A stretch of DNA of 64,000 nt from Candidatus Sulfidibacterium hydrothermale (GTDB lineage Bacteria > Bacteroidota > Bacteroidia > Bacteroidales > F082), in contig NZ_CP083760.1 in the NCBI RefSeq assembly GCF_020149915.1, positions 558,001-622,000 on the forward strand, in the 5' to 3' direction. The translations under genes and the position numbers were made by a program. The stretch's first letter is position 1; the number at the start of each line of letters is the position of its first letter. The notes under the pieces were generated by a model that was not told the DNA's origin, searched no databases, and saw nothing but the letters and a program-made list of their open reading frames with translations. Positions 2,336-47,069 of the stretch are shown piece by piece.

Positions 2336-3601
2336 CTAACTTAACTCGTTGTCCAGTTTTTGGGGTGTATTATAGCGTTCAGCATGTTCTTGTGGGGTTA
2401 CTTTGATATATTTTAGAAAGGCAGTTTCTGTGCGGTGGCCGGTGATGGCCATGATGGTAATAGAGGGTATTCCCATTTTATACATGTTTGTAGCAAATGA
2501 ACGACGTGCCGTGTGGGTGGTTACCAGTTGCCATTTATTTTTGATAATGGTTTCTGTTTTTCCGCCTCTGGTAATTTGCTTGGTAACGGCTTCCTTAAAG
2601 TCTGCCATTTTTGCCACTTGCTTTATGTATTCATTAAACTTTTGATTTGAAATGGTCTTGGGTAAAACACCTTTATATTTATCCAGGATTGTTTTCACTG
2701 TAGGGTGAATTGGAATGACTACCGGTTGCCCGGTCTTTTGTTGCTTCAGTGTGAGGAAACCATTTTGAATATTTTCAGGTTTTACTTTATTCCAGTCTGA
2801 AAAACGCAAACCTGTCCAGCAACCTATCAGGAATAAATCTCGTGTTCGGTCAAGGTATGGTTTGTTTGACAAATCCAGTTTGGTTATTTGTTCAATTTCC
2901 TGAACTGACAAATAGATATTGTCGCTTTCCTCTGTAATAGCCTTAAATCGTTTGCTTTTAAAAGCCATATTAGTGTTGATGCCTCTGTCAGTGGCTTCGT
3001 TCAGAACAATTTTAAGAAAACGTAATTTTTTACCAATGGTGTTTTGTGCTAAATTTTTTTTCTCTAAGAATTTGATAAAGTCGTTGTAAAAATCCAAATC
3101 AATATCTTCAAAATCAATCTCTTTTCTTCTACTTCGGGCATACTCTTTCAGGTACCCAAATGTTACATGAAATTCCCGCACTGACTGATACGATATTTGT
3201 TTGTCTGTTTTTTGGTTTATCCGGTGTTCTGCATTGTCAATTACACTTTGAAAAAAGTCAAAGAGCGTTTTGGGCTTTTCTGTGTATTTGTCAGGAAAAC
3301 GGTATTTATCAATAACCAAATTTAGCCAATCTGCTGTGGGAAGTGTTTTCAGGTCTTTATATGCATCCAGTATTGCAACTTCTAAGTTATCGAGGTATTG
3401 TTTGTCCTTATTTTTGTCAGGGTATTTCGTTTTTTTGTTTATCGTGTGTGTTTCGTTACTGAAATGCCGGGGTAAAATCTCTAAACCTGATTTAGCATAA
3501 AGATTAATTTTTTTCCCATGTCTAAACCTCACCCTGACGCTGATTTTTTTGGTCGGGTCTGTTTTTTTTGATGTCCTGACAAAATAAATAACGGTTGCCA
3601 T
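2336..3601 (-). CDS. Tyrosine-type site-specific recombinase (integrase), 3' end rewritten by the IS
   Basis: 421 aa. An N-terminal Arm-DNA-binding domain (1-100) and a SAM-like core-binding domain (about 110-210) precede the catalytic domain. The catalytic residues are visible: R266 (TGLRFSDW), K289, H363 and R366 (HTARR), H389 (GHR) and Y398 (FLKYIKV), so chemistry should be possible. It would integrate and excise the accessory segment. The IS terminal repeat ends at 2355, so the last residues (DNELS and the stop) are encoded by IS DNA and the native C-terminal tail is lost. Whether it is still active is unclear. Transcription runs inward, away from the probable element edge. Confidence 0.9.
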   Translation of the reverse strand: MATVIYFVRTSKKTDPTKKISVRVRFRHGKKINLYAKSGLEILPRHFSNETHTINKKTKYPDKNKDKQYLDNLEVAILDAYKDLKTLPTADWLNLVIDKYRFPDKYTEKPKTLFDFFQSVIDNAEHRINQKTDKQISYQSVREFHVTFGYLKEYARSRRKEIDFEDIDLDFYNDFIKFLEKKNLAQNTIGKKLRFLKIVLNEATDRGINTNMAFKSKRFKAITEESDNIYLSVQEIEQITKLDLSNKPYLDRTRDLFLIGCWTGLRFSDWNKVKPENIQNGFLTLKQQKTGQPVVIPIHPTVKTILDKYKGVLPKTISNQKFNEYIKQVAKMADFKEAVTKQITRGGKTETIIKNKWQLVTTHTARRSFATNMYKMGIPSITIMAITGHRTETAFLKYIKVTPQEHAERYNTPQKLDNELS

Positions 3602-4353: not shown

Positions 4354-6279
4354 ATGGGAAAAATTATTGGAATAGACTTGGGAACCACAAACTCATGCGT
4401 AGCTGTAATGGAAGGTAATGAGCCGGTGGTTATCCCTAACAGCGAAGGGCATCGTACCACTCCCTCAATTGTGGCATTTACTGAAAATGGCGAAAGAAAG
4501 ATTGGCGATCCTGCCAAACGTCAGGCCATTACAAACCCCAAAAGAACGATTGCTTCGATCAAACGTTTTATGGGGAACTCGTACGACGAAGTAACAGAAG
4601 AAATCAAACGGATGTCGTACGAAGTAGTCAGAGGTGATAATAATACTCCGCGTGTAAAAATTGACGATCGATTATATACACCGCAGGAAATCTCAGCCAT
4701 GATTCTTCAGAAAATGAAGAAAACGGCAGAAGATTACCTGGGACAAACCGTAACGGAAGCGGTAATTACGGTTCCTGCTTACTTTAATGATGCACAGCGT
4801 CAGGCTACTAAAGAAGCTGGTGAAATTGCCGGTTTAAAAGTCAGACGTATCATCAACGAACCGACAGCTGCTTCGTTAGCTTATGGTTTGGATAAGAAAA
4901 AACAAGACGAAACGGTAGCCGTTTTCGACTTGGGTGGCGGTACTTTTGATATCTCTATCCTGGAACTTGGTGACGGCGTTTTTGAAGTTAAATCGACCAA
5001 TGGTAATACGCACCTTGGTGGTGACGACTTTGATGGTAAAATCATCAACTGGCTGGCCGAAGAGTTCCTGAAAGATGAAGGCGTTGATTTGCGGAAAGAT
5101 CCGATGGCTTTGCAGCGTTTGAAAGAAGCTGCTGAAAAAGCTAAGATCGAACTGTCAAGTTCTACGGAAACCGAAATCAACCTGCCTTACATTATGCCGG
5201 TGGACGGTGTGCCGAAACACTTGGTACGTAAACTAACCCGGGCTAAATTTGAGCAACTGACCGATGATCTGATTAAGGCAACCATTGAACCTTGTAAAGC
5301 TGCCTTGAAAGATGCTGGTATCAGTGCTTCGGATGTGGATGAAGTAATCTTGGTAGGAGGTTCCACCCGTATTCCGGCTATTCAGAAAATTGTAAAAGAC
5401 TTTTTCGGAAAAGAGCCATCCAAAGGAGTGAATCCGGATGAAGTAGTGGCCATTGGTGCGGCTATTCAGGGTGGTGTACTGACCGGAGAAGTAAAAGATG
5501 TTCTGTTGCTGGACGTTACTCCGCTTTCGCTGGGTATTGAAACGTTGGGTGGTGTAATGACCAAATTGATTGAAGCCAATACCACTATCCCGACGAAGAA
5601 ATCGGAGGTCTTCTCTACAGCTGCTGATAACCAGCCTTCGGTAGAGATTCATGTGCTGCAGGGTGAACGCCCGATGGCTAATCAGAACAAAAGTATCGGA
5701 CGGTTCCATTTGGACGGCATTCCGCCGGCCCCGCGTGGAGTACCGCAGATCGAAGTGACTTTTGATATCGATAGCAATGGTATTCTGAATGTAACAGCAA
5801 AAGACAAGGCTACCGGTAAATCGCAAAACATCCGTATTGAAGCTTCTTCCGGATTGTCTGAAGAAGAAATTAAACGGATGAAAGCGGAAGCTGAAGCCAA
5901 TGCTGAGGAAGACAAAAAAGCAAAAGAGCGTATCGACAAACTGAATGCTGCTGATGCATTGATCTTCCAGACAGAAAAACAACTGAAAGAGTATGGCGAT
6001 AAATTGCCGGCTGATAAAAAATCAGAAATTGAAAGCGGTTTGGAAGCTTTACGTAATGCACACAAATCGCAGGATATCCCGGCTATAGATGCTGCCATGG
6101 AAAAACTGAATGCAGCTTGGCAAAAAGCCAGTGAAGACATGTATAAAAGTGCTCAAGGCGGAGCTGCAGGAACACAAACCCCACCTCAGGGTGACGCTTC
6201 CGATTCTTCAAGCAATACCGGAAACGGAGGAGATGACGAAGTAACAGATGTTGACTTTGAGGAAGTGGACGATAAATAA
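4354..6279 (+). CDS. dnaK: Chaperone protein DnaK (Hsp70)
   Basis: 641 aa, normal length. The ATPase domain carries [13 protein letters not shown] at the N-terminus, [13 protein letters not shown] near 190 and [10 protein letters not shown] near 335. The substrate-binding domain and helical lid follow, then a low-complexity Gly/Ser tail ending EEVDDK, the conserved C-terminus. It is the ATP-dependent cytosolic foldase working with DnaJ and GrpE, which are not in the window. It stands alone, ends at a strong hairpin terminator, and has no CIRCE (HrcA) operator upstream. The start is fixed by the GGAGG sequence. Confidence 0.99.
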
Positions 6280-6296
6280 AACCGATTGAAACGATG

Positions 6297-6330
6297 AAAA
6301 AAAGCTGCTCTTAACGGGCAGCTTTTTTTT
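6297..6330 (+). terminator. Rho-independent terminator of dnaK
   Basis: Stem AAAAAAGCTGC / GCAGCTTTTTT with a 9-base loop and a T8 tract, 17 bp after the dnaK stop. The A-rich side may also serve the convergent amylase transcript. Confidence 0.85.
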
Positions 6331-6361
6331 GCTCTGTATTTACCGACAGGTTTGTTCTTTG

Positions 6362-6391
6362 TTCCTGTTCTGCCTGCAGGCAGAACAGGAA
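6362..6391. repeat. 30-bp perfect palindrome between dnaK and the amylase gene
   Basis: A perfect inverted repeat with no loop, centred on TGCCTGCAGGCA and flanked by TTCCTGTTC / GAACAGGAA. It lies 40 bp past the convergent amylase stop. It may terminate the amylase transcript or be a dispersed repetitive palindrome. Confidence 0.6.
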
Positions 6392-6431
6392 TTTTGTTGT
6401 TAATCAAAAAAAGATTTCCTTTTCGTTATGA

Positions 6432-9257
6432 TCATTGAATCATAATTTTTTTGGCCAACCGCTGGATTCCATTGTTCCAGACAATGAAATATAATCCGTG
6501 ATTTAATTCGCCTACATCGAAATGCAGGTGGTTTGTTCCCTGTTTGAAATGGCCTTCGTACAGAACTTTTACTTTGCGTCCGGTTAAATCATAAAGCGAA
6601 AAGTTTCCCGAGGTTGCTTCTTTCTGGTTCCAGGTGATATCCATGCTTGAAATCACCGGGTTGGGATAAACAGAAAATTCACTTTCGTTATCCTGAATAG
6701 TATTTTCTTGAATACCAAGAATAAAGTCAGGCCGGTTTAATTTTACGGAAGTGTAAAGATGATATTCTCCCGGAGCCAGTGTCATCTGAAAATCAGTCCC
6801 TGTACTGGTTACGTTCAAGGAATCACCGGAAAAATAATCATACCACCATCCGGTTTTTTGAAAATCCGGAGAAATGGTCACCGTTTTTACATCAAAATTC
6901 CCCAAAATGTTTACTTGCATATCTGTACCATTCAGCTGGATCTTTTTAAACAAACCATTGCCCACATCCAGGCTGTAATCGGTAGTATTGAAGATGGGTT
7001 CTGTTTCTTTTAAATGAATCAATGCCGACCACACCCCATACAAATGTTTCCGGTCGGGGTTGTCATAATAATCCCATAAAATGGGCTTCGGATCTGTACG
7101 GCAACTTTCACTTAAAGAACCGTTTTGACATTGGTTGATGGAAATATCGTAACCCAATTCCCCAAATTGCCAGATCATTTTCGGGCCCGGAATGGTAAAA
7201 AAGAAAGCGCCGGCCATTTCCATACGTTTCAACCCGGTGGGAATGTCTTTTACCTGATAATCTCCGTCAGCGTTTCCGTATTGTTCATTTTTAAACATCA
7301 GCCGTTCTTCGTCATGACTTTCCATATAGCCCATTACACCGGCCGGATTGGTAAATCCGCGTGCTTCATAAGAAATCCACGAAAAGTCAGAACCGTCATT
7401 ATATCCCATGGTGGCCTGGTTGTAATTGTAATTGGAATTTCCCCAAACACTCATTCCGTAACTGGTAAGAACCTTTTCTTCGCTATTTTCCGTAAAATGT
7501 TCCAGAATGACGTATGCGTCTTTTTTGTAAGACCAGATGTGGCTTGCCATTCGTTCCAGAATATCAATACGAGACTGATCGTAAGCCCATCCGTCGCCCG
7601 GTGTATTGGTAAAGCCTTTGGTAAAATCAAAGCGGAAACCATCCACGTGATACTGAGAAATCCAGTAATGATTTACACTGTCAACAAACTGGTGAGTCGC
7701 CGGACTTTCATGATTAAAATCGGCACCCCATTGGTAAGTCGGGTTTGGTGAAGTTTCGTTGAACCAGGGATTGTCAGCAGCGGGCTGGTTTTTGGCTGCA
7801 TTCCAGTACATCATCACCAACGGACAGGTTCCGTATGCATGATTGAGTACCATGTCCATGATTACGGCAATACCGTTGGAATGACAGGAGTCGACAAAGG
7901 CCTTGAACGTGTTTTTCGGGCCATAATATTTATCTACGGCAAAATAATAATTCGGATTGTATCCCCAGCTGATATTTCCCTCAAATTCACTTACCGGCAT
8001 CAGTTCAATGGCATTAATGCCCAACCGTTTTAGGTAACCCAAGGTGTCAATAATATCATCAAAAGTGTGCCCGGCGGTGAAATCACGGACCAATAATTCG
8101 TAAACCACAAGGTTTTTCATGTCCGGAGCTTGAAAATCATTGTTTTTCCAGGCGTAAGGCGTTTGTGCCGTTTCTAAAACGGTGGCGATGCCTGTTGTTT
8201 TTCCGGTAGGATACGGAATCAGATTGGGGTATGTTTCCGAAGAAATATACTTGTCGTTCCACGGGTCACTGACTTGGTCGGCATACGGATCACCAATACG
8301 AATGGTTCCGTCGATAAGATATTGAAAGATATATTGTTTTTGTGGTGTTAATCCCGAAATCTTAATCCAAAACCGGTTGCTGTCCGGAGTCATGTTCATG
8401 GCCCATTGATCGCCCACCTGCCAATCGTTAAAGTCTCCAATAGCAAAAACATATTTTTTGTAAGGAGCGTAAAGGCTTAGAATAACAGTAGAATCATCGA
8501 TGTAATTGATTCCGTCGCGTACTCCGGCTGGCAAAGCCTCGATATGTGGGGGACGGTTCACATAAAAATAAACCGAATCATAAACAACTTTACTGTCTTC
8601 TACTGCTTTTGCAATGATCCAGTGTTTTCCGTATTCGTTGGCAATAAGGGTATCCGTAAACGAAGAAGCGGTGTCGGCAATTAACACCTGATTGTCAACT
8701 AAAAGAAACGTTGAATCGGCATAGCTGCTGCTTCCTTTTATCAGAATGGTATCGTTCAGGTTCACAATTTTGGGTTGTACATCCGGCAAAGTAATTTTTA
8801 CGTAGGTGCCGGTTTCGTAAACTTTATAAAAGATATCGCCACCATCTGCTTCTCTTCCTGTACGGGAACCATCGGCAGAGCGGAAAACAAAAGCCATTTC
8901 CAGGATCTTTTCATCATCCGGAACACCATAATAAGCTCGGATGGACGGACCAATTTTCAATTGCCACAAATTGTTTCCCAATGGGGTCATTTTACATGCG
9001 GGAATGTTTTCGGTCCAGTCGGCTTTTACATAACGCCAGTCGGAGGGTTGTGTACTTTTATCAGTAATGACTCCGGTGTGGGCATAAACATCACCCGTGT
9101 AGTCTTTTAATCCGGCATCACCTTGGGTAGCATCGAAAATTATAGTAACAGAATCGGTTGCTGTTGGAAAAGGAGGATCGGCAGTAATAACCTGTGCAAA
9201 GCTTTCTAAAGAAAAAAGCAAACCAATGAGGAATAAAAGTGTAGTCTTTTTGTTCAT
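6432..9257 (-). CDS. Secreted alpha-amylase family (GH13) enzyme with T9SS sorting domain
   Basis: 941 aa. Signal peptide (1-22, ending SFAQ), two N-terminal beta-sandwich regions (about 23-240), a CBM48-like segment (about 255-345, with GDFNDW) and a GH13 barrel from about 380. The conserved regions are present: DMVLNH 468-473, DGFRFD with nucleophile D544, acid E586 (ILEHF), and H648-D649. The last 80 residues (VYPNPVISS, then LYDLTGRKV) are a type IX secretion C-terminal domain. The enzyme should therefore be exported through T9SS and act on starch-like glucans at or outside the outer membrane. Exact specificity cannot be read. It is transcribed alone, toward dnaK. Confidence 0.93.
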   Translation of the reverse strand: MNKKTTLLFLIGLLFSLESFAQVITADPPFPTATDSVTIIFDATQGDAGLKDYTGDVYAHTGVITDKSTQPSDWRYVKADWTENIPACKMTPLGNNLWQLKIGPSIRAYYGVPDDEKILEMAFVFRSADGSRTGREADGGDIFYKVYETGTYVKITLPDVQPKIVNLNDTILIKGSSSYADSTFLLVDNQVLIADTASSFTDTLIANEYGKHWIIAKAVEDSKVVYDSVYFYVNRPPHIEALPAGVRDGINYIDDSTVILSLYAPYKKYVFAIGDFNDWQVGDQWAMNMTPDSNRFWIKISGLTPQKQYIFQYLIDGTIRIGDPYADQVSDPWNDKYISSETYPNLIPYPTGKTTGIATVLETAQTPYAWKNNDFQAPDMKNLVVYELLVRDFTAGHTFDDIIDTLGYLKRLGINAIELMPVSEFEGNISWGYNPNYYFAVDKYYGPKNTFKAFVDSCHSNGIAVIMDMVLNHAYGTCPLVMMYWNAAKNQPAADNPWFNETSPNPTYQWGADFNHESPATHQFVDSVNHYWISQYHVDGFRFDFTKGFTNTPGDGWAYDQSRIDILERMASHIWSYKKDAYVILEHFTENSEEKVLTSYGMSVWGNSNYNYNQATMGYNDGSDFSWISYEARGFTNPAGVMGYMESHDEERLMFKNEQYGNADGDYQVKDIPTGLKRMEMAGAFFFTIPGPKMIWQFGELGYDISINQCQNGSLSESCRTDPKPILWDYYDNPDRKHLYGVWSALIHLKETEPIFNTTDYSLDVGNGLFKKIQLNGTDMQVNILGNFDVKTVTISPDFQKTGWWYDYFSGDSLNVTSTGTDFQMTLAPGEYHLYTSVKLNRPDFILGIQENTIQDNESEFSVYPNPVISSMDITWNQKEATSGNFSLYDLTGRKVKVLYEGHFKQGTNHLHFDVGELNHGLYFIVWNNGIQRLAKKIMIQ

Positions 9258-9293
9258 GATTTGTGTTTTGGAAAAATAATGTTAATCAATAAA

Positions 9294-9301
9294 CAAAAGT
9301 A
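9294..9301 (-). promoter_or_regulatory. -7 promoter box of the T9SS amylase
   Basis: TACTTTTG on the minus strand matches the Bacteroidota TAnnTTTG box, 37 bp upstream of the start codon. No clear -33 TTTG is seen. Confidence 0.55.
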
Positions 9302-9390
9302 TTACATAAAATCATACGAATAAGGAAAAAACGTAGAATAGCCAGAAAAATACGACCAATGGACAGAAAAAATAGTCTGGTGTCTGGTTG

Positions 9391-9400
9391 CAATCGTTTG
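9391..9400. promoter_or_regulatory. Candidate LacI-type operator (amylase)
   Basis: CAATCGTTTG, a near-palindrome with the central CG typical of LacI/GalR operators. The identical 10-mer lies upstream of susC. It sits about 90 bp upstream of the -7 box, so activation or looping would be needed. The core also occurs by chance in coding DNA. Confidence 0.35.
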
Positions 9401-9591
9401 ATGAGAACTAAAATTTTAAAAAGGCGTTAGGGGTTGTGTGTATTGGTTTACGAAAACCAGACGAAAGATTTTAGTGCTAAACATGCAAATGTGGATAAAT
9501 CGTAGTTTAAATAACATTTTGTTGTTAATATCTTCTAAGTAGGAGTACTTTCAGAAAAAAGTATTTTTCTATTTTTAACTTTAATCTTTGA

Positions 9592-9633
9592 GCAGTGATA
9601 AAAAAATCCAGTGCAGTGATAAAAAAATCCAGT
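9592..9633. repeat. 21-bp perfect tandem duplication abutting a start codon
   Basis: Two adjacent identical 21-bp units (9592-9612 and 9613-9633), each beginning GCAGTGATAAAAAAATCC. The second ends one base before the ATG at 9635, so the ribosome-binding region is duplicated. Confidence 0.85.
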
Positions 9634-9634
9634 T

Positions 9635-10846
9635 ATGAAAAATAAATTGACACTTTCCGCCTTTCTCACTTTACTTTTTTTATTTACAACTTTTTCTTTT
9701 GCTTGGGGACAGCATGTGGTTCCTGAAAAGAAGTTTTCTCCTTACTGGGAAGTTGGTTTGACAGGAGGTACCAGCCTCTTTTTTGGTGATGTGAAACAAA
9801 ATCCGATTCTCCCGGTAAGTACCAACAATAATGAATGGCGTTTGGGAGGAAGTCTGCTGGCCGGACGTCAGTTTAGTTATGTTTTCGGTCTCCGTGGGCA
9901 GGCACTTTATGGACAAATTGCCGGGACAAAACGCTCTGCTGATTATTTCTTTGAAGGGGATTATTTTGAGTTTAATCTGAATACTACCATTGATCTGAAC
10001 AATTTACTGGGAAGAAAACGGACAGATCGGTTTATTACAACTTATTTACTGGCGGGTGTGGGGTTGACTAATTATAATTCAACAATCTATACACTGTCAA
10101 CCGGTATGGTAAAAAGAAAAATTGGCTTTGGTAATGGTTCTGGAATTGGTGGTAGAACATTGGAGGGAATTCTTACAGGTGGGATAGGTGTTAATTTTAG
10201 GATTAATGACCATTTCATTATTAATTTAGAAACAGCCAACCGGATTATGAATTCTGACGAAATGGATGGCTGGGTAAGGAATTTTAAATATGATGTTTAT
10301 AATTATACATCGGTGGGGTTGTTTTATAAATTTGGACAGCGAAAAGCCAAAACAGCACCGCCTGCATCAGTGGTTACTCATCAAAATATGCGGGAAATCC
10401 CACCGGCTCAACCAGTACACCAGCCAGAGAAGAAACCTTGTATAACCGAACCAACCCCGGTGATGCCGCCAACAACAACGAATACCACAAAAAAAGTAGA
10501 AAAAACCCCGGTTCAAACGGAACAACCAGCCCAACAACCGGCCGTGGTTCCGGTGAAAGTCAGTACCCCGGCACCCCCGCCACAGCCTGTGCTGGAATAT
10601 CGTGTGCAAATACGGGCAAAATACGGGAATCCGATTTCAGTTTCTTGGCTGAGTCGTAGATATCATATTCCGGTAAATGAAATCAGACAAGACAAACACA
10701 ACGGATATTATATCTATACCGTAGGTTCTTATGATACTTACGAACAGGCCCGGACCCGTCGCGATCAGTTACGAAATGTAAATGGAATCCGTGATGCTTT
10801 TGTAGTTGCGTTTAAAAATGGCTATCGTTTGGATAAATTGCCTTAA
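9635..10846 (+). CDS. Outer-membrane beta-barrel protein with C-terminal SPOR domain
   Basis: 403 aa. Signal peptide (1-25, ending AWG/Q). Alternating strands with aromatic residues (about 35-235) look like an OmpA-size 8-stranded barrel, ending VGLFYKFG. A Pro/Thr-rich linker (about 240-320) follows, then a SPOR-like domain (about 325-403: EYRVQIRAKYGN, then YYIYTVGSYDTYEQA). SPOR domains bind denuded septal peptidoglycan, so the protein could tie the outer membrane to the wall. No specific homologue is recognised. It is followed by tatA and a lytic transglycosylase, an envelope-themed run. Confidence 0.75.
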   Translation: MKNKLTLSAFLTLLFLFTTFSFAWGQHVVPEKKFSPYWEVGLTGGTSLFFGDVKQNPILPVSTNNNEWRLGGSLLAGRQFSYVFGLRGQALYGQIAGTKRSADYFFEGDYFEFNLNTTIDLNNLLGRKRTDRFITTYLLAGVGLTNYNSTIYTLSTGMVKRKIGFGNGSGIGGRTLEGILTGGIGVNFRINDHFIINLETANRIMNSDEMDGWVRNFKYDVYNYTSVGLFYKFGQRKAKTAPPASVVTHQNMREIPPAQPVHQPEKKPCITEPTPVMPPTTTNTTKKVEKTPVQTEQPAQQPAVVPVKVSTPAPPPQPVLEYRVQIRAKYGNPISVSWLSRRYHIPVNEIRQDKHNGYYIYTVGSYDTYEQARTRRDQLRNVNGIRDAFVVAFKNGYRLDKLP

Positions 10847-10867
10847 TTTGCAAAAAAAAGTATTGTC

Positions 10868-10987
10868 ATGTGGAAAAGCGAATGGGATTATAATCCGGAA
10901 ATTGACAGGTTACCGCGTAATGTTACTTTTATGATTGTGATTGCGTCTATTATTGCGGCGGTTTATTTGTCTTTTGTTCTGGTATAA
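10868..10987 (+). CDS. Small single-span membrane protein, 39 aa
   Basis: ATG to TAA, 39 codons: a charged, Trp-containing N-terminus (MWKSEWDYNPEIDRLPRN) followed by one hydrophobic helix (VTFMIVIASIIAAVYLSFVLV, split at the membrane face). It starts 21 bp after the barrel/SPOR gene and may be co-transcribed with it. I do not recognise a family. The clean amphipathic-then-hydrophobic layout argues for a real gene. Confidence 0.5.
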   Translation: MWKSEWDYNPEIDRLPRNVTFMIVIASIIAAVYLSFVLV

Positions 10988-30509: not shown

Positions 30510-31889
30510 ATGAAAAACAAAAAAAAATCTATACTTTCGCCGGCTTTGTTAATGGCTTTGGTATTCAGTTTTATGTTTGCCTTTGGCCAAAATGTAAATA
30601 ATCAAACCATGGAAAAGAAATCAGAACGACATGTGGCCTGGAGTCGCCATGCCAATATATATGAAGTAAATATTCGTCAGTATACTCCTGAAGGAACATT
30701 TAAGGCTTTTCAGCAACATCTGCCACGATTGCAAAAAATGGGAGTGAAGATTTTATGGCTTATGCCGATCTATCCCATTGGCGAAAAAAACAGGAAAGGA
30801 ACGCTGGGAAGCTATTATGCAGTACAGAATTATGAAGCGGTTAATCCGAACTTTGGAACACTGGATGACCTGAAATCGCTGGTAAAAGATGCCCATGCCA
30901 GGGGAATGCATGTTATTCTTGACTGGGTGGCCAACCATACGGCCTGGGATAATGTGTGGGTGAAAGAGCATCCCGACTGGTATAAAAAAGACAGTAGCGG
31001 AAACTTTGTTTCTCCTTTTGACTGGACCGATGTAATTGCCCTGAATTACGATAATCAGGATTTGCGTCATGCGATGATAAATGCCATGATTTTTTGGCTG
31101 AAGAATGCGGATGTAGATGGTTTCCGGTGTGATGTGGCCGGGATGGTGCCGGTTGATTTTTGGGATGAAGCCCGTACGGCACTGGATAAAGTTAAACCGG
31201 TATTCATGCTGGCAGAGGATGAAGATAATGTGGCTTTGGTTAAGTATGCTTTTGATATGAATTATACCTGGAAAATGTTGCATTTGATGAACGACATTGC
31301 CTCTGGAAAGAAAAAAGCGGCTGAGATTTGGAATTATTTGAAATGGAACAACGAAACTTTCGATCCGGACGTGTACCGGATGTATTTTACCAGTAATCAT
31401 GATGAAAATTCCTGGAATGGTACGGCATTTGAACGGCTGGGTGACGCTTTTAAGGTGTTTACGGTTTTCGATTATACCATTCCCGGAATGCCTTTGATCT
31501 ATGGTGGTGAAGAAGCCGGAAATAACAAACGCCTTCGCTTTTTTGAAAAAGATACGATTAACTGGAGCCAGTTGCCTTATGCCGAATTTTACGGCCGGTT
31601 GAATCACCTGAAAGATACCTGTAGTCTGCTGACTAACGGCGATGAAGGAGGAAAACTTATCCCTTTGTCTGAAGGAATAAGTGATGATGTTTTTGCTTTT
31701 TACCGTGAAAAAGGCGGCCGCCAAATGGTGGTAATTCTCAACCTGTGTAACCAGCCCCGGAGTTTTACTTTGAACAACGAAAAGATCAAAGGAAAATACA
31801 AGTTGTTTTTTAAAGGAGAAGAAATAGAAATCCAAACCGATTGGGTTTTTCATTTACCGGCTTGGGGTTATACCGTACTCCTGAAATAA
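30510..31889 (+). CDS. Exported alpha-amylase family (GH13) enzyme
   Basis: 459 aa. Signal peptide (1-27, ending FAFGQ) and a compact GH13 barrel with no extra carbohydrate-binding module. The conserved regions are DWVANH 138-143, DGFRCD with nucleophile D208, acid E236 (MLAED) and H297-D298. A C-terminal beta domain follows. No T9SS tail or lipobox is present, so it is probably periplasmic. The size and the IYEVNIRQYTPEGTF start are typical of maltodextrin-acting alpha-amylase or alpha-glucosidase-like enzymes; the exact linkage cannot be read. A LacI-type regulator follows 133 bp downstream. Confidence 0.92.
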   Translation: MKNKKKSILSPALLMALVFSFMFAFGQNVNNQTMEKKSERHVAWSRHANIYEVNIRQYTPEGTFKAFQQHLPRLQKMGVKILWLMPIYPIGEKNRKGTLGSYYAVQNYEAVNPNFGTLDDLKSLVKDAHARGMHVILDWVANHTAWDNVWVKEHPDWYKKDSSGNFVSPFDWTDVIALNYDNQDLRHAMINAMIFWLKNADVDGFRCDVAGMVPVDFWDEARTALDKVKPVFMLAEDEDNVALVKYAFDMNYTWKMLHLMNDIASGKKKAAEIWNYLKWNNETFDPDVYRMYFTSNHDENSWNGTAFERLGDAFKVFTVFDYTIPGMPLIYGGEEAGNNKRLRFFEKDTINWSQLPYAEFYGRLNHLKDTCSLLTNGDEGGKLIPLSEGISDDVFAFYREKGGRQMVVILNLCNQPRSFTLNNEKIKGKYKLFFKGEEIEIQTDWVFHLPAWGYTVLLK

Positions 31890-32022: not shown

Positions 32023-33030
32023 ATGAAAAAGCAGGTTACCATAAAAGATATTGCTGAAAAACTCGGTTTTTCCGTTTCTACGGTTTCGCGTGCTTTGAAG
32101 GATCATCCCGACATCAGTATAAAGACCCGGGAGGCGGTGAAAGAACTCGCTAAACTGTTGGGTTATAAACCAAACCGTATAGCCCTTAATCTGAAAAACA
32201 GCAAAACATACACCATTGGACTTCTTGTCCCTGAAACCCAGCACTATTTTTTTTCAACCATTATTAACGGAATTGAAGAGGTTGCTTACGAAAACAATTA
32301 CAACGTCATGGTTTTTCAGTCCAATGAAAAATACATGCGCGAAGTGCTGAATATTCAGGCATTGCTTTCGAACCGGGTGGATGGTGTTCTGGTTTCGTAT
32401 GCTAAAGAAACGCATGATTTTTCTCACTTTCAGCAAATAATTGATAACGAAATACCCCTTGTATTTTTTGATCGGATTAACAAAGACCTGCATGCTGATA
32501 CTGTCTCCGTTGACGATTATAACGGCGCTTTTCAGGCTGTCAGTTATCTGATTGAAAAAGGATGTAAACGGATTGCCATTTATTCGGCTCCGCAGCACCT
32601 GCTGCTGGGACAGAACCGGCTTAATGGCTATAAAGATGCGTTGGAAAAACACGGGATGCCTTTTAGCAGAGATTTGGTTTATTCGTGTGATACTTATCAG
32701 GATGCCATTAAAATATCGAGAAGCGTTTTTAAAAAGAAAGACTTCCCGGACGGACTTTTTGCGGCAAATGACATGACGGCTTTAGGAGCCATGAAAGCAG
32801 CCCGGAAACTGGGTATCCATATTCCCGACGATCTGAAAGTTATCGGGTTTGAAAACAGTCTGAGTGCTTCAATTTGCGATCCTGAACTGACAACAGTAGA
32901 GCAGTTTGGTTTTGAAATGGGGAAAAAGGCGACCCGTTTGTTGTTAAAACGAATTGAAGAGGATAGTTTTGATTTTACTCCCGAACATCACCTCATTAAA
33001 ACACAGCTGATCGAAAGAGGTACTTGTTAA
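32023..33030 (+). CDS. LacI/GalR family transcriptional regulator
   Basis: 335 aa. N-terminal HTH (VTIKDIAEKLGFSVSTVSRAL) with hinge helix (NRIALNLKNSKTYTIGLLVP), then a periplasmic-binding-protein-like sugar domain (about 60-335). It is placed between an exported GH13 enzyme and, 8 kb on, the sus operon, so a maltodextrin or glucan sensor is likely. CAAwCGwTT near-palindromes upstream of susC, downstream of this gene and upstream of the T9SS amylase could be its sites. The ligand is not known. Confidence 0.95.
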   Translation: MKKQVTIKDIAEKLGFSVSTVSRALKDHPDISIKTREAVKELAKLLGYKPNRIALNLKNSKTYTIGLLVPETQHYFFSTIINGIEEVAYENNYNVMVFQSNEKYMREVLNIQALLSNRVDGVLVSYAKETHDFSHFQQIIDNEIPLVFFDRINKDLHADTVSVDDYNGAFQAVSYLIEKGCKRIAIYSAPQHLLLGQNRLNGYKDALEKHGMPFSRDLVYSCDTYQDAIKISRSVFKKKDFPDGLFAANDMTALGAMKAARKLGIHIPDDLKVIGFENSLSASICDPELTTVEQFGFEMGKKATRLLLKRIEEDSFDFTPEHHLIKTQLIERGTC

Positions 33031-40730: not shown

Positions 40731-43700
40731 ATGCTAAAAAAGTTATTCAAAAGCGCTGCTTTGCTGGTGCTCCTCTTTTTTATGGGGGGAATATCAGCGG
40801 CAATGGCCCAGAGCGGGACAGTTCGGGGTACCATTGTGGATGCATCGGATGGTTCACCTTTGCCGGGTGCTACGGTTCAGGTGAAAGGGACAACCACCGG
40901 AACCGTTACCGACATGAACGGTAAATACAGCATCCAAGTAAATGGAAATGCCGTTTTGGTGTTTTCGTATGTGGGTTATCAATCCCAGGAAATAGCAGTA
41001 AAACCGAACACTGTAGTAAATGTTCGGTTAAAACCATCTGCTGCTAATCTGAATGAACTGGTGGTTATTGGTTACGGAACCGTAAAAAAGAAAGATGCTA
41101 CCGGTTCGGTAACCGCCATCGGCTCTAAAAGTTTTAACAAAGGAGCAATTACTTCGCCTACCGACCTGTTGGCGGGGAAAGTGGCCGGTGTTCAAATTAC
41201 CACCAACGGCGGAGCCCCCGGAAGCGGGACAACCATTCGTATTCGTGGCGGTTCGTCTCTTTCGGCCAGTAACGATCCTTTGATTGTTGTGGACGGTGTG
41301 CCTTTGGATAATTCCCAAACGGCCGGAATGCGTAATCCGCTTAACTCCATCAACCCGGAAGACATTGCTACCTTTACCGTATTAAAAGACGCTTCGGCTA
41401 CCGCTATTTACGGTTCGCGGGCTTCTAACGGGGTAATTATTATTACCACTAAAAAAGGAAGAGTAGGACAGCCTTTGCGGGTAAATTATTCGGGAAAATT
41501 TTCGTTTTATACTACCCCTAACAAAGTCAGTGTGTTCGATACCCAAAGCTATAAATCGTTGGTTGAAGAGCGTTACGCTGGCCAGGATGATGTGCTGAAA
41601 CTGCTCGGAAACAGCAGTACCAACTGGCAAGACGAGATTTTCCAGGATGCTTTCGGTATGGACCATTATGTAAGTGTAACCGGAGCTTACAAAACATTGC
41701 CTTATCGTGTTTCGGCCGGTTATTCCAATACAGACGGTATTTTAAAAACCGATAATCTGAAACGAACGACACTGGCAGCATCGTTAACGCCGACCTTATT
41801 TAAAGATCATTTAAAAATCACCTTTAATGTTAAAGGTACTTTTGTAAAGAATCATTTTGCTGACCAGGGAGCTATTGGCGCTGCCACGCAATTTGATCCT
41901 ACCAAGCCGGTAAGATCCGATTCAACCTATACCGTTTATTTTAACCAACCGGACGGAACTCCTGATTCGATGACAACGAATTATGGTGGTTATTATACCT
42001 GGACACAGGCTAATGGCTCGCCGGTAAAACTGGCTACTACCAACCCTGTGGCTTTGTTGAATTTAACAGACAACAGTTCGGATGTAAGCGGGGTGATAGG
42101 AAACCTGAAACTGGATTATAAACTTCCTTTCTTCCCGGAAATGAGTGCTCACCTGAATTTGGCTTATGACCATTCAAAAAGTACCGGTGCTTACATTGTT
42201 CCGGAATATGCTTCCTGGACATTTGATCCGGTTCATGGTGGCGGAGTTTATAATAGTTATGAGCAGAAAAAGAAAAATGACCTGCTTGATTTTTATCTGA
42301 ACTATGATAAAGATGTAAAAAGCATTCACAGTACCTTTAATGCCATGGTTGGATATTCATGGCAGCATTTCTGGAGAAGAGATTATTCTGAAAACGGAAA
42401 CTATTCGCATACCTGGAATCTTGACACCATTGATCATCCTACCGAATATTATCTGGTTTCCTTTTTTGGAAGATTTAATTACGCATACAAAGACAAATAT
42501 TTGTTGACTTTCACTTTGCGTGATGATGGTACTTCGCGGTTCTCACCGGATACCCGTTGGGGATTGTTCCCGTCAGTGGCACTTGCCTGGCGTATCAATG
42601 AAGAACCCTGGCTGAAAGATTCAAAAGTACTTTCGCAGTTGAAACTGAGATTGGGTTACGGAATTACCGGTCAGCAAAATATCAATCAGGGAAATTATCC
42701 CTACCTGCCGCGATATACGCTGAGCCAAAACAATGCAGCGTATCAGCTGGGTAATGTATTTTATCTGACCCTTCGTCCCGAAGGATACAATCCTAACATC
42801 AAATGGGAAGAAACCACTACTTATAATGCAGGTATTGATTATGGTTTTCTGGATGGCCGTATTTACGGTTCATTTGATTACTATTATCGTAAAACCAAAG
42901 ACCTGTTGAACTTTATTCCGGTTCCGGCAGGTTCTAACCTGACAAACTATCTGCTGACTAATATTGGTGACCTTGAAAATAAAGGGGTTGAGTTTTCCAT
43001 TAATGCCGTGGTAATTTCTAAAAAAGATCTTAGCTGGTCTGTGGGCTTTAATGCATCATCCAATTCCAATAAAATTACCAAATTAACAGCAACTAATAAT
43101 CCTGATTATCTGGGAGTGGCTGTTGGCGGTATCTCCGGTGGTGTAGGTAACACGGTTCAGATCCACAGTGTGGGATATCCGGCTTATTCGTTTTATGTTT
43201 ACCAGCAGGTATATGATGAGAACGGAAAACCCATTGAAGGACTGTATGTCGACCGGAACGGCGATGGCCAGATTACCGATGCTGACCGTTACCATTACGA
43301 AGATCCGGCTCCCAAATTTTATTTTGGAATTACTTCCAATTTGCGTTATAAAGACTGGACATTCTCTTTCTCCGGAAGAGCAAACTTCGGAAACTATGTA
43401 TATAATAACGTAAGTTCCATGAACGGTGTTTACGACCGTTTGTATCGTCCTGAAGGACCTTATTTGAGCAACATCACTACAGATGTTACACAAACCGGAT
43501 TTGTTGATCCGCAGTATTTATCGGATTATTACGTTCAAAACGCTTCTTTCTTCAGAATGGACAATATCTCATTGGGATATCAGTTTAAAAACCTGAACAA
43601 AAGCCAGAAAAACCCCATCAATCTGGGACTCTCTTTTACCATTAACAATGCTTTTGTGATTACCGACTATACCGGACTGGATCCGGAAGTGAGTAACGGG

Positions 43701-43763
43701 ATTGACAACAACATTTATCCCCGTCCGACAACTTATGTTTTGGGTGTAAACCTGCAATTTTAA
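40731..43763 (+). CDS. susC: SusC/RagA-type TonB-dependent outer-membrane transporter
   Basis: 1010 aa. Signal peptide (1-26), a CarboxypepD_reg-like beta-sandwich (about 28-110; VRGTIVDASDGSPLPGATV), a TonB plug (about 115-230; the KDASATAIYGSRASNGVIII signature) and a 22-strand barrel ending in Phe (YVLGVNLQF). It imports oligosaccharides captured by the SusD lid, driven by TonB. First gene of a SusC-SusD-SusE operon; the 13-bp gap to SusD is typical. The substrate is inferred as starch-like glucan from the SusE modules and the nearby GH13 enzymes. Confidence 0.97.
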   Translation: MLKKLFKSAALLVLLFFMGGISAAMAQSGTVRGTIVDASDGSPLPGATVQVKGTTTGTVTDMNGKYSIQVNGNAVLVFSYVGYQSQEIAVKPNTVVNVRLKPSAANLNELVVIGYGTVKKKDATGSVTAIGSKSFNKGAITSPTDLLAGKVAGVQITTNGGAPGSGTTIRIRGGSSLSASNDPLIVVDGVPLDNSQTAGMRNPLNSINPEDIATFTVLKDASATAIYGSRASNGVIIITTKKGRVGQPLRVNYSGKFSFYTTPNKVSVFDTQSYKSLVEERYAGQDDVLKLLGNSSTNWQDEIFQDAFGMDHYVSVTGAYKTLPYRVSAGYSNTDGILKTDNLKRTTLAASLTPTLFKDHLKITFNVKGTFVKNHFADQGAIGAATQFDPTKPVRSDSTYTVYFNQPDGTPDSMTTNYGGYYTWTQANGSPVKLATTNPVALLNLTDNSSDVSGVIGNLKLDYKLPFFPEMSAHLNLAYDHSKSTGAYIVPEYASWTFDPVHGGGVYNSYEQKKKNDLLDFYLNYDKDVKSIHSTFNAMVGYSWQHFWRRDYSENGNYSHTWNLDTIDHPTEYYLVSFFGRFNYAYKDKYLLTFTLRDDGTSRFSPDTRWGLFPSVALAWRINEEPWLKDSKVLSQLKLRLGYGITGQQNINQGNYPYLPRYTLSQNNAAYQLGNVFYLTLRPEGYNPNIKWEETTTYNAGIDYGFLDGRIYGSFDYYYRKTKDLLNFIPVPAGSNLTNYLLTNIGDLENKGVEFSINAVVISKKDLSWSVGFNASSNSNKITKLTATNNPDYLGVAVGGISGGVGNTVQIHSVGYPAYSFYVYQQVYDENGKPIEGLYVDRNGDGQITDADRYHYEDPAPKFYFGITSNLRYKDWTFSFSGRANFGNYVYNNVSSMNGVYDRLYRPEGPYLSNITTDVTQTGFVDPQYLSDYYVQNASFFRMDNISLGYQFKNLNKSQKNPINLGLSFTINNAFVITDYTGLDPEVSNGIDNNIYPRPTTYVLGVNLQF

Positions 43764-43776
43764 CCGATAAAAATTA

Positions 43777-45987
43777 ATGACTATGTACAGAATATATTAT
43801 AAACTCATTTTATTGGCCGGACTGGTCTTTGTGCTGGCTTCCTGTACTAAAGACCTGGATACTGTGCCGCTTGACCCAAAGGTCGAGACCTCTGCTAATG
43901 TTTTTGATAATCCGGCCGCATATAAAGAAGCGTTGGCCAAAATTTATGCCGGACTGGCTGTTTCTGGTCAGGAAGGTCCTTCCGGAATGCCGGATATCAG
44001 CGGCATTGACGAAGGTTTTGGTCAGTATCTTCGCGGATTGTGGTATCTCGAAGAACTGCCTACCGACGAAGCTGTAATTTCGTGGAACGACCAAACGATT
44101 AAAGATTTTCATAATCAATCTTGGACTTCCAGTGACGTATTTATCAGTGCCTTTTATTACCGGATTTTTTACCAAATCGGGTTGTGTAATGAATTTTTAC
44201 GCCAGACTACAGATGAAAAACTGAATGAACGCGGGGTGGATGATGCGCTGCGAGCCGACATCAAACACTATCGTGCTGAAGCCCGTTTTATGCGTGCACT
44301 GAGTTATTATCATGCGCTGGATGAATTCGGTAGTGTGCCTTTTGTTACCGAAAATGATCCGGTTGGCGCTTTCTTCCCGAAACAAATTTCACGTACTGAT
44401 TTGTTTAACTACATTGAATCGGAGCTGAAAGCCATTGAACCCGATTTGATTGATGCTCGTCAAAATGAATACGGCCGCGCCGACAAGGCTGCCGATTGGA
44501 CTCTTTTGGCTAAACTTTATCTGAATGCTAAAGTCTTTACCGGTCAGGAAAGAAATACCGATTGTATCACTTACTGTAAAAAGGTAATTGATGCGGGTTA
44601 TTCACTGGATCCGGAATATGCCAATCTCTTTTTGGCCGATAATAATGTAAATAACCCCGAAGTGATTTTCTCCATTAATTTTGACGGAGTACACACCAAA
44701 ACCTGGGGTGGAACCACATTCATTATTCATGCCGCTGTTGGCGGAAATATGAATCCGGCTGATTACGGTATTGACGGCGGTTGGGCCGGAACCCGTACAA
44801 CCAGTGCTTTGGTAGAAAAATTCGGAACAAGTGTTGCTCCCATTATTTCTCCCAAACAATTGAAAGAAACCAGAGCAACTTATCCTGTATTACATGTTCC
44901 GGGTTCATACCAGGGATGGGATCCGGGAAACGACAGTACGGTAGTTGCTTCTGTTAACAGCGATGGAAATTACGAAGGCTATCTCTATTTTAAAGATGCC
45001 GGTACTGAGTTTAAATTTGTGCAGGGAACAACCTGGACAGATCCTAACTGGGGTGATGACGGTGCTGACGGTACATTGGATCCGGGTGGAGCCAATATTA
45101 AAGTTGCCGATGCCGGTTATTATAAAATTGATGTGGATATGAACAATCTTACTTATACCGCGGTTAAAACCACGTGGGGAGTAATTGGTGATGCCACACC
45201 CGGCGGCTGGACTACTGATCAGGATATGACTTTTGATCCCAGCACCGGAACTTGGAGTGTTACTGTTGATTTGGTGAAAGGTTCACTTAAATTCCGCGCC
45301 AATCATGACTGGACCATAAACTATGGTGATAATGGTGCTGATGGTATTCTTGATGCCGGTGGAGACAATATTCAGATTCCTGAAGCAGGGACTTATGTTA
45401 TTACCCTGAAACTCGGTGTTCCTGACTATACCTATTCCATTGTAAGAAAAGCTTTTGACCATCGTGCCATGTTCTTTACCGATGGCCAGAGCCTTGAAAT
45501 TAATGATGTGGGTAAATTTACCGATGGTTATGCCGTAACGAAGTTTAAAAATATTACTTCCACTGGTCAGCCGGGTTCTGATCCTACTTTTGTGGATACC
45601 GATTTCCCCTTGTTCCGTTTAGCTGATGTTTATCTGATGTATGCTGAAGCGGTAGTTAGAGGAGGTTCCGGTGGTGATATAACCACAGCGGTTAATTATA
45701 TCAATAAACTTCGCGAAAGAGCTTATGGTGACAATTCGGGTGATATTACAGCAGATCAGCTGACTCTTCCCTTTATCCTGGATGAAAGAGCCCGTGAGTT
45801 GTACTGGGAAGCTCAGAGAAGAACCGATTTGATCCGTTTTGGTGAATTCACGGGTGGAAATTATTTGTGGCCATGGAAAGGCGGAGTAAAAGAAGGTACG
45901 GCTACGGATAGCCATTATGACCTTTACCCCATTCCGGCTTCGGATATTACTGCCAATCCTACATTAGTTCAAAATCCTGGTTATTAA
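43777..45987 (+). CDS. susD: SusD/RagB lipoprotein with an inserted pair of SusE-type binding modules
   Basis: 736 aa, about 190 longer than usual. Lipoprotein signal with lipobox (VLASC, Cys23). The SusD TPR/lid domain runs to about residue 365 (FMRALSYYHALDEFGSVPFV, ADWTLLAKLYLNAKVF). Residues about 370-558 are unlike SusD: they carry two beta modules (VPGSYQGWD..., then WGVIGDATPGGWTTD...) that match, in the same order, both C-terminal modules of the downstream SusE. SusD resumes at DHRAMFFTDG and ends normally (ILDERARELYWEAQRRTDLIRFG). It would cap SusC and bind glucan at extra sites. The frame is intact across both junctions. Confidence 0.95.
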   Translation: MTMYRIYYKLILLAGLVFVLASCTKDLDTVPLDPKVETSANVFDNPAAYKEALAKIYAGLAVSGQEGPSGMPDISGIDEGFGQYLRGLWYLEELPTDEAVISWNDQTIKDFHNQSWTSSDVFISAFYYRIFYQIGLCNEFLRQTTDEKLNERGVDDALRADIKHYRAEARFMRALSYYHALDEFGSVPFVTENDPVGAFFPKQISRTDLFNYIESELKAIEPDLIDARQNEYGRADKAADWTLLAKLYLNAKVFTGQERNTDCITYCKKVIDAGYSLDPEYANLFLADNNVNNPEVIFSINFDGVHTKTWGGTTFIIHAAVGGNMNPADYGIDGGWAGTRTTSALVEKFGTSVAPIISPKQLKETRATYPVLHVPGSYQGWDPGNDSTVVASVNSDGNYEGYLYFKDAGTEFKFVQGTTWTDPNWGDDGADGTLDPGGANIKVADAGYYKIDVDMNNLTYTAVKTTWGVIGDATPGGWTTDQDMTFDPSTGTWSVTVDLVKGSLKFRANHDWTINYGDNGADGILDAGGDNIQIPEAGTYVITLKLGVPDYTYSIVRKAFDHRAMFFTDGQSLEINDVGKFTDGYAVTKFKNITSTGQPGSDPTFVDTDFPLFRLADVYLMYAEAVVRGGSGGDITTAVNYINKLRERAYGDNSGDITADQLTLPFILDERARELYWEAQRRTDLIRFGEFTGGNYLWPWKGGVKEGTATDSHYDLYPIPASDITANPTLVQNPGY
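44884..45450 (+). other. SusE-like double module inserted in SusD
   Basis: Coding segment for SusD residues about 370-558. Module 1 has SYQGWD, NSDGNYEGYLYF and EFKFVQGTTWTD; module 2 has GDATPGGWTTDQDM and SLKFRANHDWTINYGDNGADG. SusE at 46497-47066 has the same pair, with GAYQGWNP, NSDGNYEGYIYM, GDATPGGWTTDTPM and ELKFRANGSWDLNYG. Confidence 0.85.
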
Positions 45988-46007
45988 TTCGCTAAAAATT
46001 GAATCCA

Positions 46008-47069
46008 ATGAAAAAAATATCAATATTTATTTTACTTCTCGTTACTTCTTTCGGGTTTTATTCCTGTGAAAAGTCGGGAACAGAAGTTATCCTTGATCCG
46101 GCGAATGTTACAGCTCCTCAGCTGGAAAGTCCGGCTGAAGGTACTTCCCTCGTTTTCACTAAAGAAAACAGCGACAGTACGATCCTCTTCACCTGGTCAT
46201 CGGCCCAATACGGTTTTAGTGCCGCTGTAGATTATTATGTACAGGTCGATAAACAGGGAAATGACTTTAAAAAAGCTTTGACTGTTGGTCACGTTAAAAG
46301 CAAAGACAGCCTTCAGGTAATTGTTAATGATCTGAATAATCAAATCTTGTTGCTGGAAACCGATCCGGATGTACCGGATCCGGTAGATGCTGCTTTTCGT
46401 GTGATTGCCATTGTGAACAGCCATGTAGATACGGTTTTCTCAAAAACAGTGAATATGACCATTACGCCGTTTTATATTCCGATCGTTTACCCGCAACTGT
46501 ATGTTCCGGGTGCTTATCAGGGATGGAATCCGGCAACAGCAGATTCTATTGGTTCGCTGAACAGTGACGGAAATTATGAAGGTTATATTTACATGGAAGC
46601 AACTACGGTGCCCATTGAATTTAAATTTACCAGTGCCCGCGATTGGTCACACATTAATTATGGTGATGGCGGTACTCCTGGTACATTAAGTACGGATGGC
46701 GGTGCCGGAAATCTGAAAGTACCTGAATCGGGATATTATAAGTTTAATGTGAATACCAATGATCTGACCTGGAGTTATCTGAAAACAACCTGGGCAGTGA
46801 TTGGTGATGCTACCCCGGGCGGTTGGACAACGGACACCCCCATGACTTATGATCCGGATACGCACGAATGGAAAGTGACGATGGACTTGACCGTAGGAGA
46901 ACTGAAATTCCGTGCCAATGGTTCGTGGGATTTGAATTATGGTAGCAATGATAATAATGGCCGGCTGGATCAGAACGGAAAAAATATTCAAGTTTCTGTT
47001 GCCGGTAATTACACGATTATCCTGAACCTTGACCATACGGTTTATAAGTATAGTCTGATAAAAAATTAA
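46008..47069 (+). CDS. susE: SusE/SusF-type starch-binding outer-membrane lipoprotein
   Basis: 353 aa from ATG 46008 (an upstream TTG adds three residues and is less likely). Lipobox GFYSC, Cys20. An N-terminal SusE Ig-like domain (about 25-155: APQLESPAEGTSLVF, TWSSAQYGFSAAVDYYVQVD) precedes two starch-binding modules (about 164-260 and 261-353). Surface lipoprotein holding glucan near SusCD. It ends the operon and is followed by a strong terminator. The modules are the likely source, or sister copy, of the SusD insert. Confidence 0.93.
   Translation: MKKISIFILLLVTSFGFYSCEKSGTEVILDPANVTAPQLESPAEGTSLVFTKENSDSTILFTWSSAQYGFSAAVDYYVQVDKQGNDFKKALTVGHVKSKDSLQVIVNDLNNQILLLETDPDVPDPVDAAFRVIAIVNSHVDTVFSKTVNMTITPFYIPIVYPQLYVPGAYQGWNPATADSIGSLNSDGNYEGYIYMEATTVPIEFKFTSARDWSHINYGDGGTPGTLSTDGGAGNLKVPESGYYKFNVNTNDLTWSYLKTTWAVIGDATPGGWTTDTPMTYDPDTHEWKVTMDLTVGELKFRANGSWDLNYGSNDNNGRLDQNGKNIQVSVAGNYTIILNLDHTVYKYSLIKN

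Follow-up and report, generated by a model that had tools for sequence, protein, structure and literature searches.

The SusD lid of Bacteroides thetaiotaomicron (PDB 3ck7-3ckc) carries no modules in the loop considered here (chain positions 314 to 348), and SusE and SusF of that organism (4fch, 4fem, 4fe9) are separate proteins. A starch-binding screen has recovered SusF_SusE domains (PMC10076258, in the part of that paper covered), and stable levan and dextran assemblies have been contrasted with a more dynamic starch system (PMC7618045, likewise covered in part), the interplay of SusE and SusF with the SusCD lid being an unsettled question. Herein we describe a susD gene (43777..45987, + strand) from a 64 000 nt stretch of Candidatus Sulfidibacterium hydrothermale (contig NZ_CP083760.1, positions 558 001 to 622 000; hereafter the window), the 736 aa product of which harbours two SusE-type modules within the SusD fold itself. 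SusDs with such a two-module insert are referred to as long forms, and those without it as short forms. The window SusD is a real, recurrent and conserved SusD variant. On the basis of the observed insert architecture, its recurrence, the predicted folds, the phylogenies and purifying selection, we consider that the susC-susD-susE genes of the window probably constitute an alpha-glucan-type uptake operon, in which the lid bears two SusE-type starch-binding modules as its own tethers.

A SusD lid interrupted by two SusE-type modules

The susD frame begins with ATG, contains no internal stop and encodes a lipobox-type SCTKD close to the N-terminus, with C23 nearly invariant in an alignment of relatives. 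Pfam recognizes SusD_RagB (PF07980) as two stretches (138.2 bits, cut-off 23.1) and, between them, SusF_SusE (PF16411), also as two stretches (55.6 bits, cut-off 27.5). Unlike the separate SusE, which has PF14292 at 66.2 bits, the SusD product has no PF14292 listed by Pfam, so that the modules inside SusD differ from B. thetaiotaomicron SusE and SusF in this respect as well. Matches to solved SusDs by phmmer stop at query residues 349-354 and restart at 553-560, and blastp aligns 213 residues with the downstream SusE (106 identical, 50 %, E 8e-63), both modules occurring in the same order; the DNA of the two genes is 66 % identical over 362 nt. An earlier note on this DNA had described a SusD broken in frame by two SusE-type modules in SusE order, and reading frame, Pfam, blastp (including the alignment of insert and SusE that it proposed) and phmmer all agree with this. 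The limits that it gave are refined, however, with the foreign stretch and its linkers comprising residues 350-560, in frame on either side, and SusD restarting at D561.

The N-terminal part of the core thus covers residues 1-349 (43777..44823), including W310 (44704-44706) and W336 (44782-44784), and is followed by an N-terminal linker of residues 350-368 (44824..44880), for which the predicted structure has pLDDT values below 50 at residues 352-356 and 358-365. Module 1 (residues 369-463; 44881..45165) contains W381 and module 2 (residues 464-558; 45166..45450) contains W467, W478 and W512, both being delimited by Pfam, blastp against SusE and predicted fold. A junction of residues 559-560 (45451..45456) leads into the C-terminal part of the core, as recognized by Pfam and phmmer (residues 561-736 and the stop codon; 45457..45987). 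Relatives devoid of the insert bridge F349 to D561 with a short loop, often of around 10 aa.

Fold comparison of the predicted structure places the protein within the SusD fold and matches the insert to the SusE/SusF tandem. The structure prediction of SusD alone that the earlier note had called for thus favours its view, both modules being predicted as SusE-type beta modules. Fold comparison was needed to reveal this relationship because sequence searches of the PDB with the insert reached only parts of BT3088 SGBPdex (phmmer E 0.013; profile E 8e-7). We take W96, Y296 and W320 of B. thetaiotaomicron SusD, so numbered, to be its starch-binding aromatic arc. In alignment, the window residues opposite W320 and Y296 are W336 (invariant across 95 rows) and W310, respectively; W96 falls opposite I101, W103 being two residues further on. 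W336 is followed by a helix, and the lid loop behind that helix is the insertion site.

A search for the same insert in other SusDs, also proposed earlier, returned the two-module architecture in 58 further distinct proteins. Together with the in-frame edges, this indicates that the insert is neither chance nor an assembly join. As the genome is a single contig, the probability that assembly or annotation has artificially created the interruption is negligible.

Distribution of long and short forms

The sample comprises 111 SusD open reading frames (ORFs) with both core parts and more than 52 % identity in the first, less 15 duplicates, leaving 96 with the window included. Of these, 59 are long and 37 short, proportions that are not frequencies, as the long protein was the query and the best 80 of 225 loci were taken. 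L087 and L088, truncated by contig ends, were discarded before counting, as were fragments of the SusDs of L002 and L004 and, from L055, a second SusD that is more distant; L061, which starts at a contig edge, was omitted from alignment A1. For L083 only the larger of two ORFs was used, its long susD (5980-8384) being broken into 5980-6480 and 6495-8384. In Neolewinella lacunae KCTC 42187, a cultured carrier, the L055 locus (5944-10984) is a tandem of long susD, susE and that second susD, which is short.

Of 173 genomes from the window's family, 31 give a match at E <= 1e-100: nine with full-length long forms, 21 with forms that are short by match range, and one (G029) with a 3' fragment of a long form. 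This fragment corresponds to residues 500-736 and lies inside a contig (L136/L148, 4903-5847, - strand), followed by a susE-like gene; neither the N-terminal SusD part nor SusC was matched in the 12 kb examined. Across the phylum sample 64 of 395 genomes match, and reading of the sequences identified two modules in three, a single module in ten (eight from family f65 and two from f47) and an unrelated insert in two. The other 49 were called short by frame length and match range, with sequence fetched for G466 only. Amongst plasmid records, 58 contain a SusD match, none of which covers 80 % of the query in one place.

Origin and movement of the insert

The earlier note had derived the insert from an operon-internal copy of susE modules. 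For the window gene this source is ruled out by a tree that combines 59 inserts with 55 SusE tails (bootstrap not yet settled), in which 57 inserts, that of the window included, form one clade (96/94). Within this clade the window insert pairs with that of L006, another species of its genus (99/96), and then with L036 (99/93), being 73.8 and 73.0 % identical to these, respectively, versus 54.3 % to its own SusE. Thus, whilst 50 % identity, a common module order, the adjacency of the genes and the susE-to-susD copying seen in kin might all suggest that this organism recently duplicated modules of its adjoining susE into susD, such an event is very improbable.

It is in relatives that the idea of operon-internal copying holds. 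The inserts of L007 and L008, from the window's genus, group with the SusEs of the genus and not with inserts (98/86). L007 module 1 shares 72 % identity with the SusE of L007 and 49 % with the window insert, whereas module 2 is about equally close to both (61 and 60 %, respectively), and the end of module 2 and the linkers look insert-like (LKLGVPPYTYTI). For L008, whose own SusE is truncated by a contig end and does not enter the comparison, module 1 is closer to the SusEs of the window and L007 (53-55 %) than to the window insert (49 %), whilst module 2 is nearer the window insert (57 %, versus 47-54 % to SusEs). From these patterns we read both as resident inserts that were gene-converted, rather than as new insertions, such that in two sister species the insert would have been partly overwritten by susE sequence. 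A second instance comes from the module tree, which has few columns and several weak groupings: the eight f65 single modules cluster together (100/95) and are allied to module 1 of f65's own SusE (98/85). The two from f47 pair with each other (98/73), just outside the module-2 clade. These families thus have a single module at the loop that holds two in the window SusD.

Collectively, ten of the 12 other inserts read are of SusE-module type, although L129 has no PF16411 match in Pfam. L131 (3814-5655) and L132 (3786-5627) carry an unrelated insert of around 80 aa at the same loop, without a PF16411 match in L131. One site that holds zero, one or two modules or an unrelated insert, patchily even within a genus, might point to a lid loop that swaps modules for surface identity, as in escape from phages or predators, with sugar binding incidental. 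The predominance of SusE-module types and the purifying selection within inserts (see below) argue against this, and we regard it as rather improbable.

The SusD core tree and the SusC tree (68 rows) were both built by a quick method. On the core tree the long label needs ten changes, at least seven of them forced by starred branches, and a topology uniting all long forms in one clade is rejected (p-AU 1.2e-6). Short forms are the sisters of two long ones here, L086 that of the window SusD (88 % core identity) and L113 that of L006. On the SusC tree five changes are needed, all forced, and the window genus belongs to a starred clade of 27, 22 of them short-form, with L036 in a different starred clade. 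Similarly, in the insert/SusE tree the genus's SusEs belong to a clade of 20 rows, 14 of which come from short-form operons. Judging from these placements, the window operon belongs to a lineage that is otherwise mostly short-form, and lateral acquisition is the most likely source of its insert. The excess of insert over core identity between the window and L036 (+2.3 sd of residuals, with at least 15 of 1711 pairs higher) is supportive only of such transfer. The motif [PDAESN]D.TG is kept in 19 of 37 short loops, L086 and L113 among them, and the short forms of the window genus therefore do not look like simple deletions. In this genus the insert may have been gained once and later replaced by short alleles, or gained two to three times. 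Overall, the two-module insert would be old, and gained, exchanged or lost at one fixed lid loop.

Co-adaptation of SusC to a long SusD was considered for a SusC loop (window residues ~395-412) and rejected. In one alignment, which did not contain the window's long-form genus-mates, the window and 12 of 21 short-form SusCs have this loop, whereas none of the 39 other long-form SusCs does. The sister pairs of window/L086, L038/L104 and L045/L107 show no gap of three or more residues apart from the N-terminus, and the loop is consequently read as a mark of lineage.

Function and selection

Outside a 25-member clade, each of three insert tryptophans (W381, W478 and W512) is retained by 33 of the 34 inserts; going by the fold, these residues would stack on sugar. 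Selection was assessed by a simple count of dN/dS over ten close pairs, giving 0.031-0.079 for the insert in eight (two were not computable) and 0.016-0.072 for the core in nine; for the window and L006 the values are 0.089 (insert) and 0.066 (core). In the proposed mechanism the insert modules would bind alpha-glucan from a position on the lid's outer face or its rim, with each SusD bringing its own polymer tethers to the SusC mouth, beside the separate SusE. The modules may travel with the lid as it moves, or deliver substrate to the pore. At L039, susC, a long susD and susE are followed by a GH13 gene with a SusG C-terminal domain.

Several observations weigh against the overall interpretation, lateral gain included. 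The 25-member, largely Saprospiraceae clade keeps W381, W478 and W512 in only eight, seven and nine of 25 inserts, respectively. dS is saturated in most pairs, being below 1 in three insert pairs only (dN/dS 0.069, 0.048 and 0.031). Neither a clear recombination tract at the insert flanks (40-residue windows) nor foreign base composition was found, insert GC equalling core GC, and lateral gain is not fully separable from ancestral presence with losses or replacement. No CAZyme, GH13 included, is present among the scanned neighbours of the window operon. Finally, glucan binding cannot be the only role of the insert, because the 25-member clade, which lacks SusE, mostly lacks the tryptophans and has GH13 in one of 25 loci, yet selection there is still purifying.

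Searching this clade found no ordinary-length SusE downstream of susD, although five of the 25 loci end less than 500 nt from susD. Whole-genome searches found PF14292 above cut-off in none of its 25 genomes, many of them drafts (three weaker matches), compared with three of three controls; it is also missing from two long-form genomes with a completeness rating of 100 %, G304 and G398. These absences, together with insert dN/dS values of 0.048 and 0.031 in two close pairs of the clade despite its missing tryptophans, would suit a mainly structural insert, one that by docking or spacing keeps the lid in place on SusC, SusE or an amylase and for which glucan binding is a lesser function or has disappeared. 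Retention of each tryptophan in nearly all other inserts argues otherwise, and we deem a mainly structural insert unlikely.

That the SusD modules serve as a replacement starch binder in SusE-less genomes was also considered, and is weakened by the loss of most tryptophans and by the PF16411 matches that 21 of the 25 clade genomes have in another frame, of 396-908 aa. L057 and L065 encode a 590 aa protein with a SusE-type match after susD. The 589-590 aa proteins of L057 (5696-7468) and, outside the clade, L056 (9386-11155) contain several PF16411 modules and a type IX secretion system (T9SS) sorting tail, and are apparently secreted starch-binding proteins; the 908 aa frames of G108 and G119 have still more PF16411 modules.

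By phmmer, GH13 occurs in 13 of 34 other long loci, ten of 37 short loci and one of 25 loci of the SusE-less clade, and GH53 in six, two and five, respectively, all counts being lower bounds from loci of differing length. A GH53 gene directly follows the long susD at L133 (6264-7661) and L063 (8179-9588), which suggests a galactan rather than starch context for some SusE-less operons.

Genomic context

Upstream of susD, susC (40731..43763, + strand) encodes a 1010 aa TonB-dependent transporter (Pfam CarbopepD_reg_2, Plug and TonB_dep_Rec_b-barrel) and ends 13 nt before it. Downstream, susE (45999..47069, + strand; 356 aa) combines PF14292 at the N-terminus with two PF16411 stretches, and its translation may start at an ATG in the same frame (46008) instead of TTG. 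The genome contains four PF16411 matches, two in the insert-bearing SusD and two in this adjoining SusE. Scanned neighbours are DUF2141, EamA and phosphorylase-superfamily proteins upstream, and MeaB, an ORF without assignment and an M16 peptidase downstream. Elsewhere in the window are a GH13 amylase that ends in a T9SS sorting tail (6432-9257, - strand), a second GH13 (30510-31889, + strand) and a LacI-type regulator (32023-33030, + strand). A phage-integrase family protein lies near its left end (2336-3601, - strand).

Comparison with known systems

Going beyond the window, we tentatively propose, as a possibility rather than a probability, that this one lid loop is a phylum-wide site of repeated module insertion, cassette exchange between species and susE overwriting, giving lids with zero, one or two covalent tethers, and that in SusE-less lineages the lid tandem took over a non-binding scaffolding role of SusE. 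Repeated use of the loop marks a site where SusD lids tolerate whole domains. Moreover, a natural covalent form of SusD and SusE modules, with sister species that have and lack it, offers a direct test of whether a lid tether aids capture or transport.

No description of SusE-type modules inside SusD was recognized among the matches listed in full-text literature searches, which mostly did not cover subscription papers, and the portions covered of PMC11093988, PMC11216935, PMC10316084, PMC11267923, PMC7618045 and PMC10076258 do not show such a protein. Parallels can nevertheless be drawn. B. thetaiotaomicron SusG likewise has a starch-binding module, CBM58, inserted in a Sus protein, within domain B (PMC11267923, in part); its host is an amylase rather than a SusD lid, and the likeness drawn here is one of architecture. 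The 'looped' and 'open' alpha-glucan SusDs of marine Flavobacteriia similarly reflect natural SusD loop variation in alpha-glucan loci, but their loop, of around 17 aa near the binding site, contains no module (PMC11093988, in the sections covered). In the levan and dextran utilisomes a surface glycan-binding protein is likewise held beside SusCD; according to the portion of PMC7618045 covered, this is a separate subunit, whereas the modules of the window SusD are part of the lid itself.
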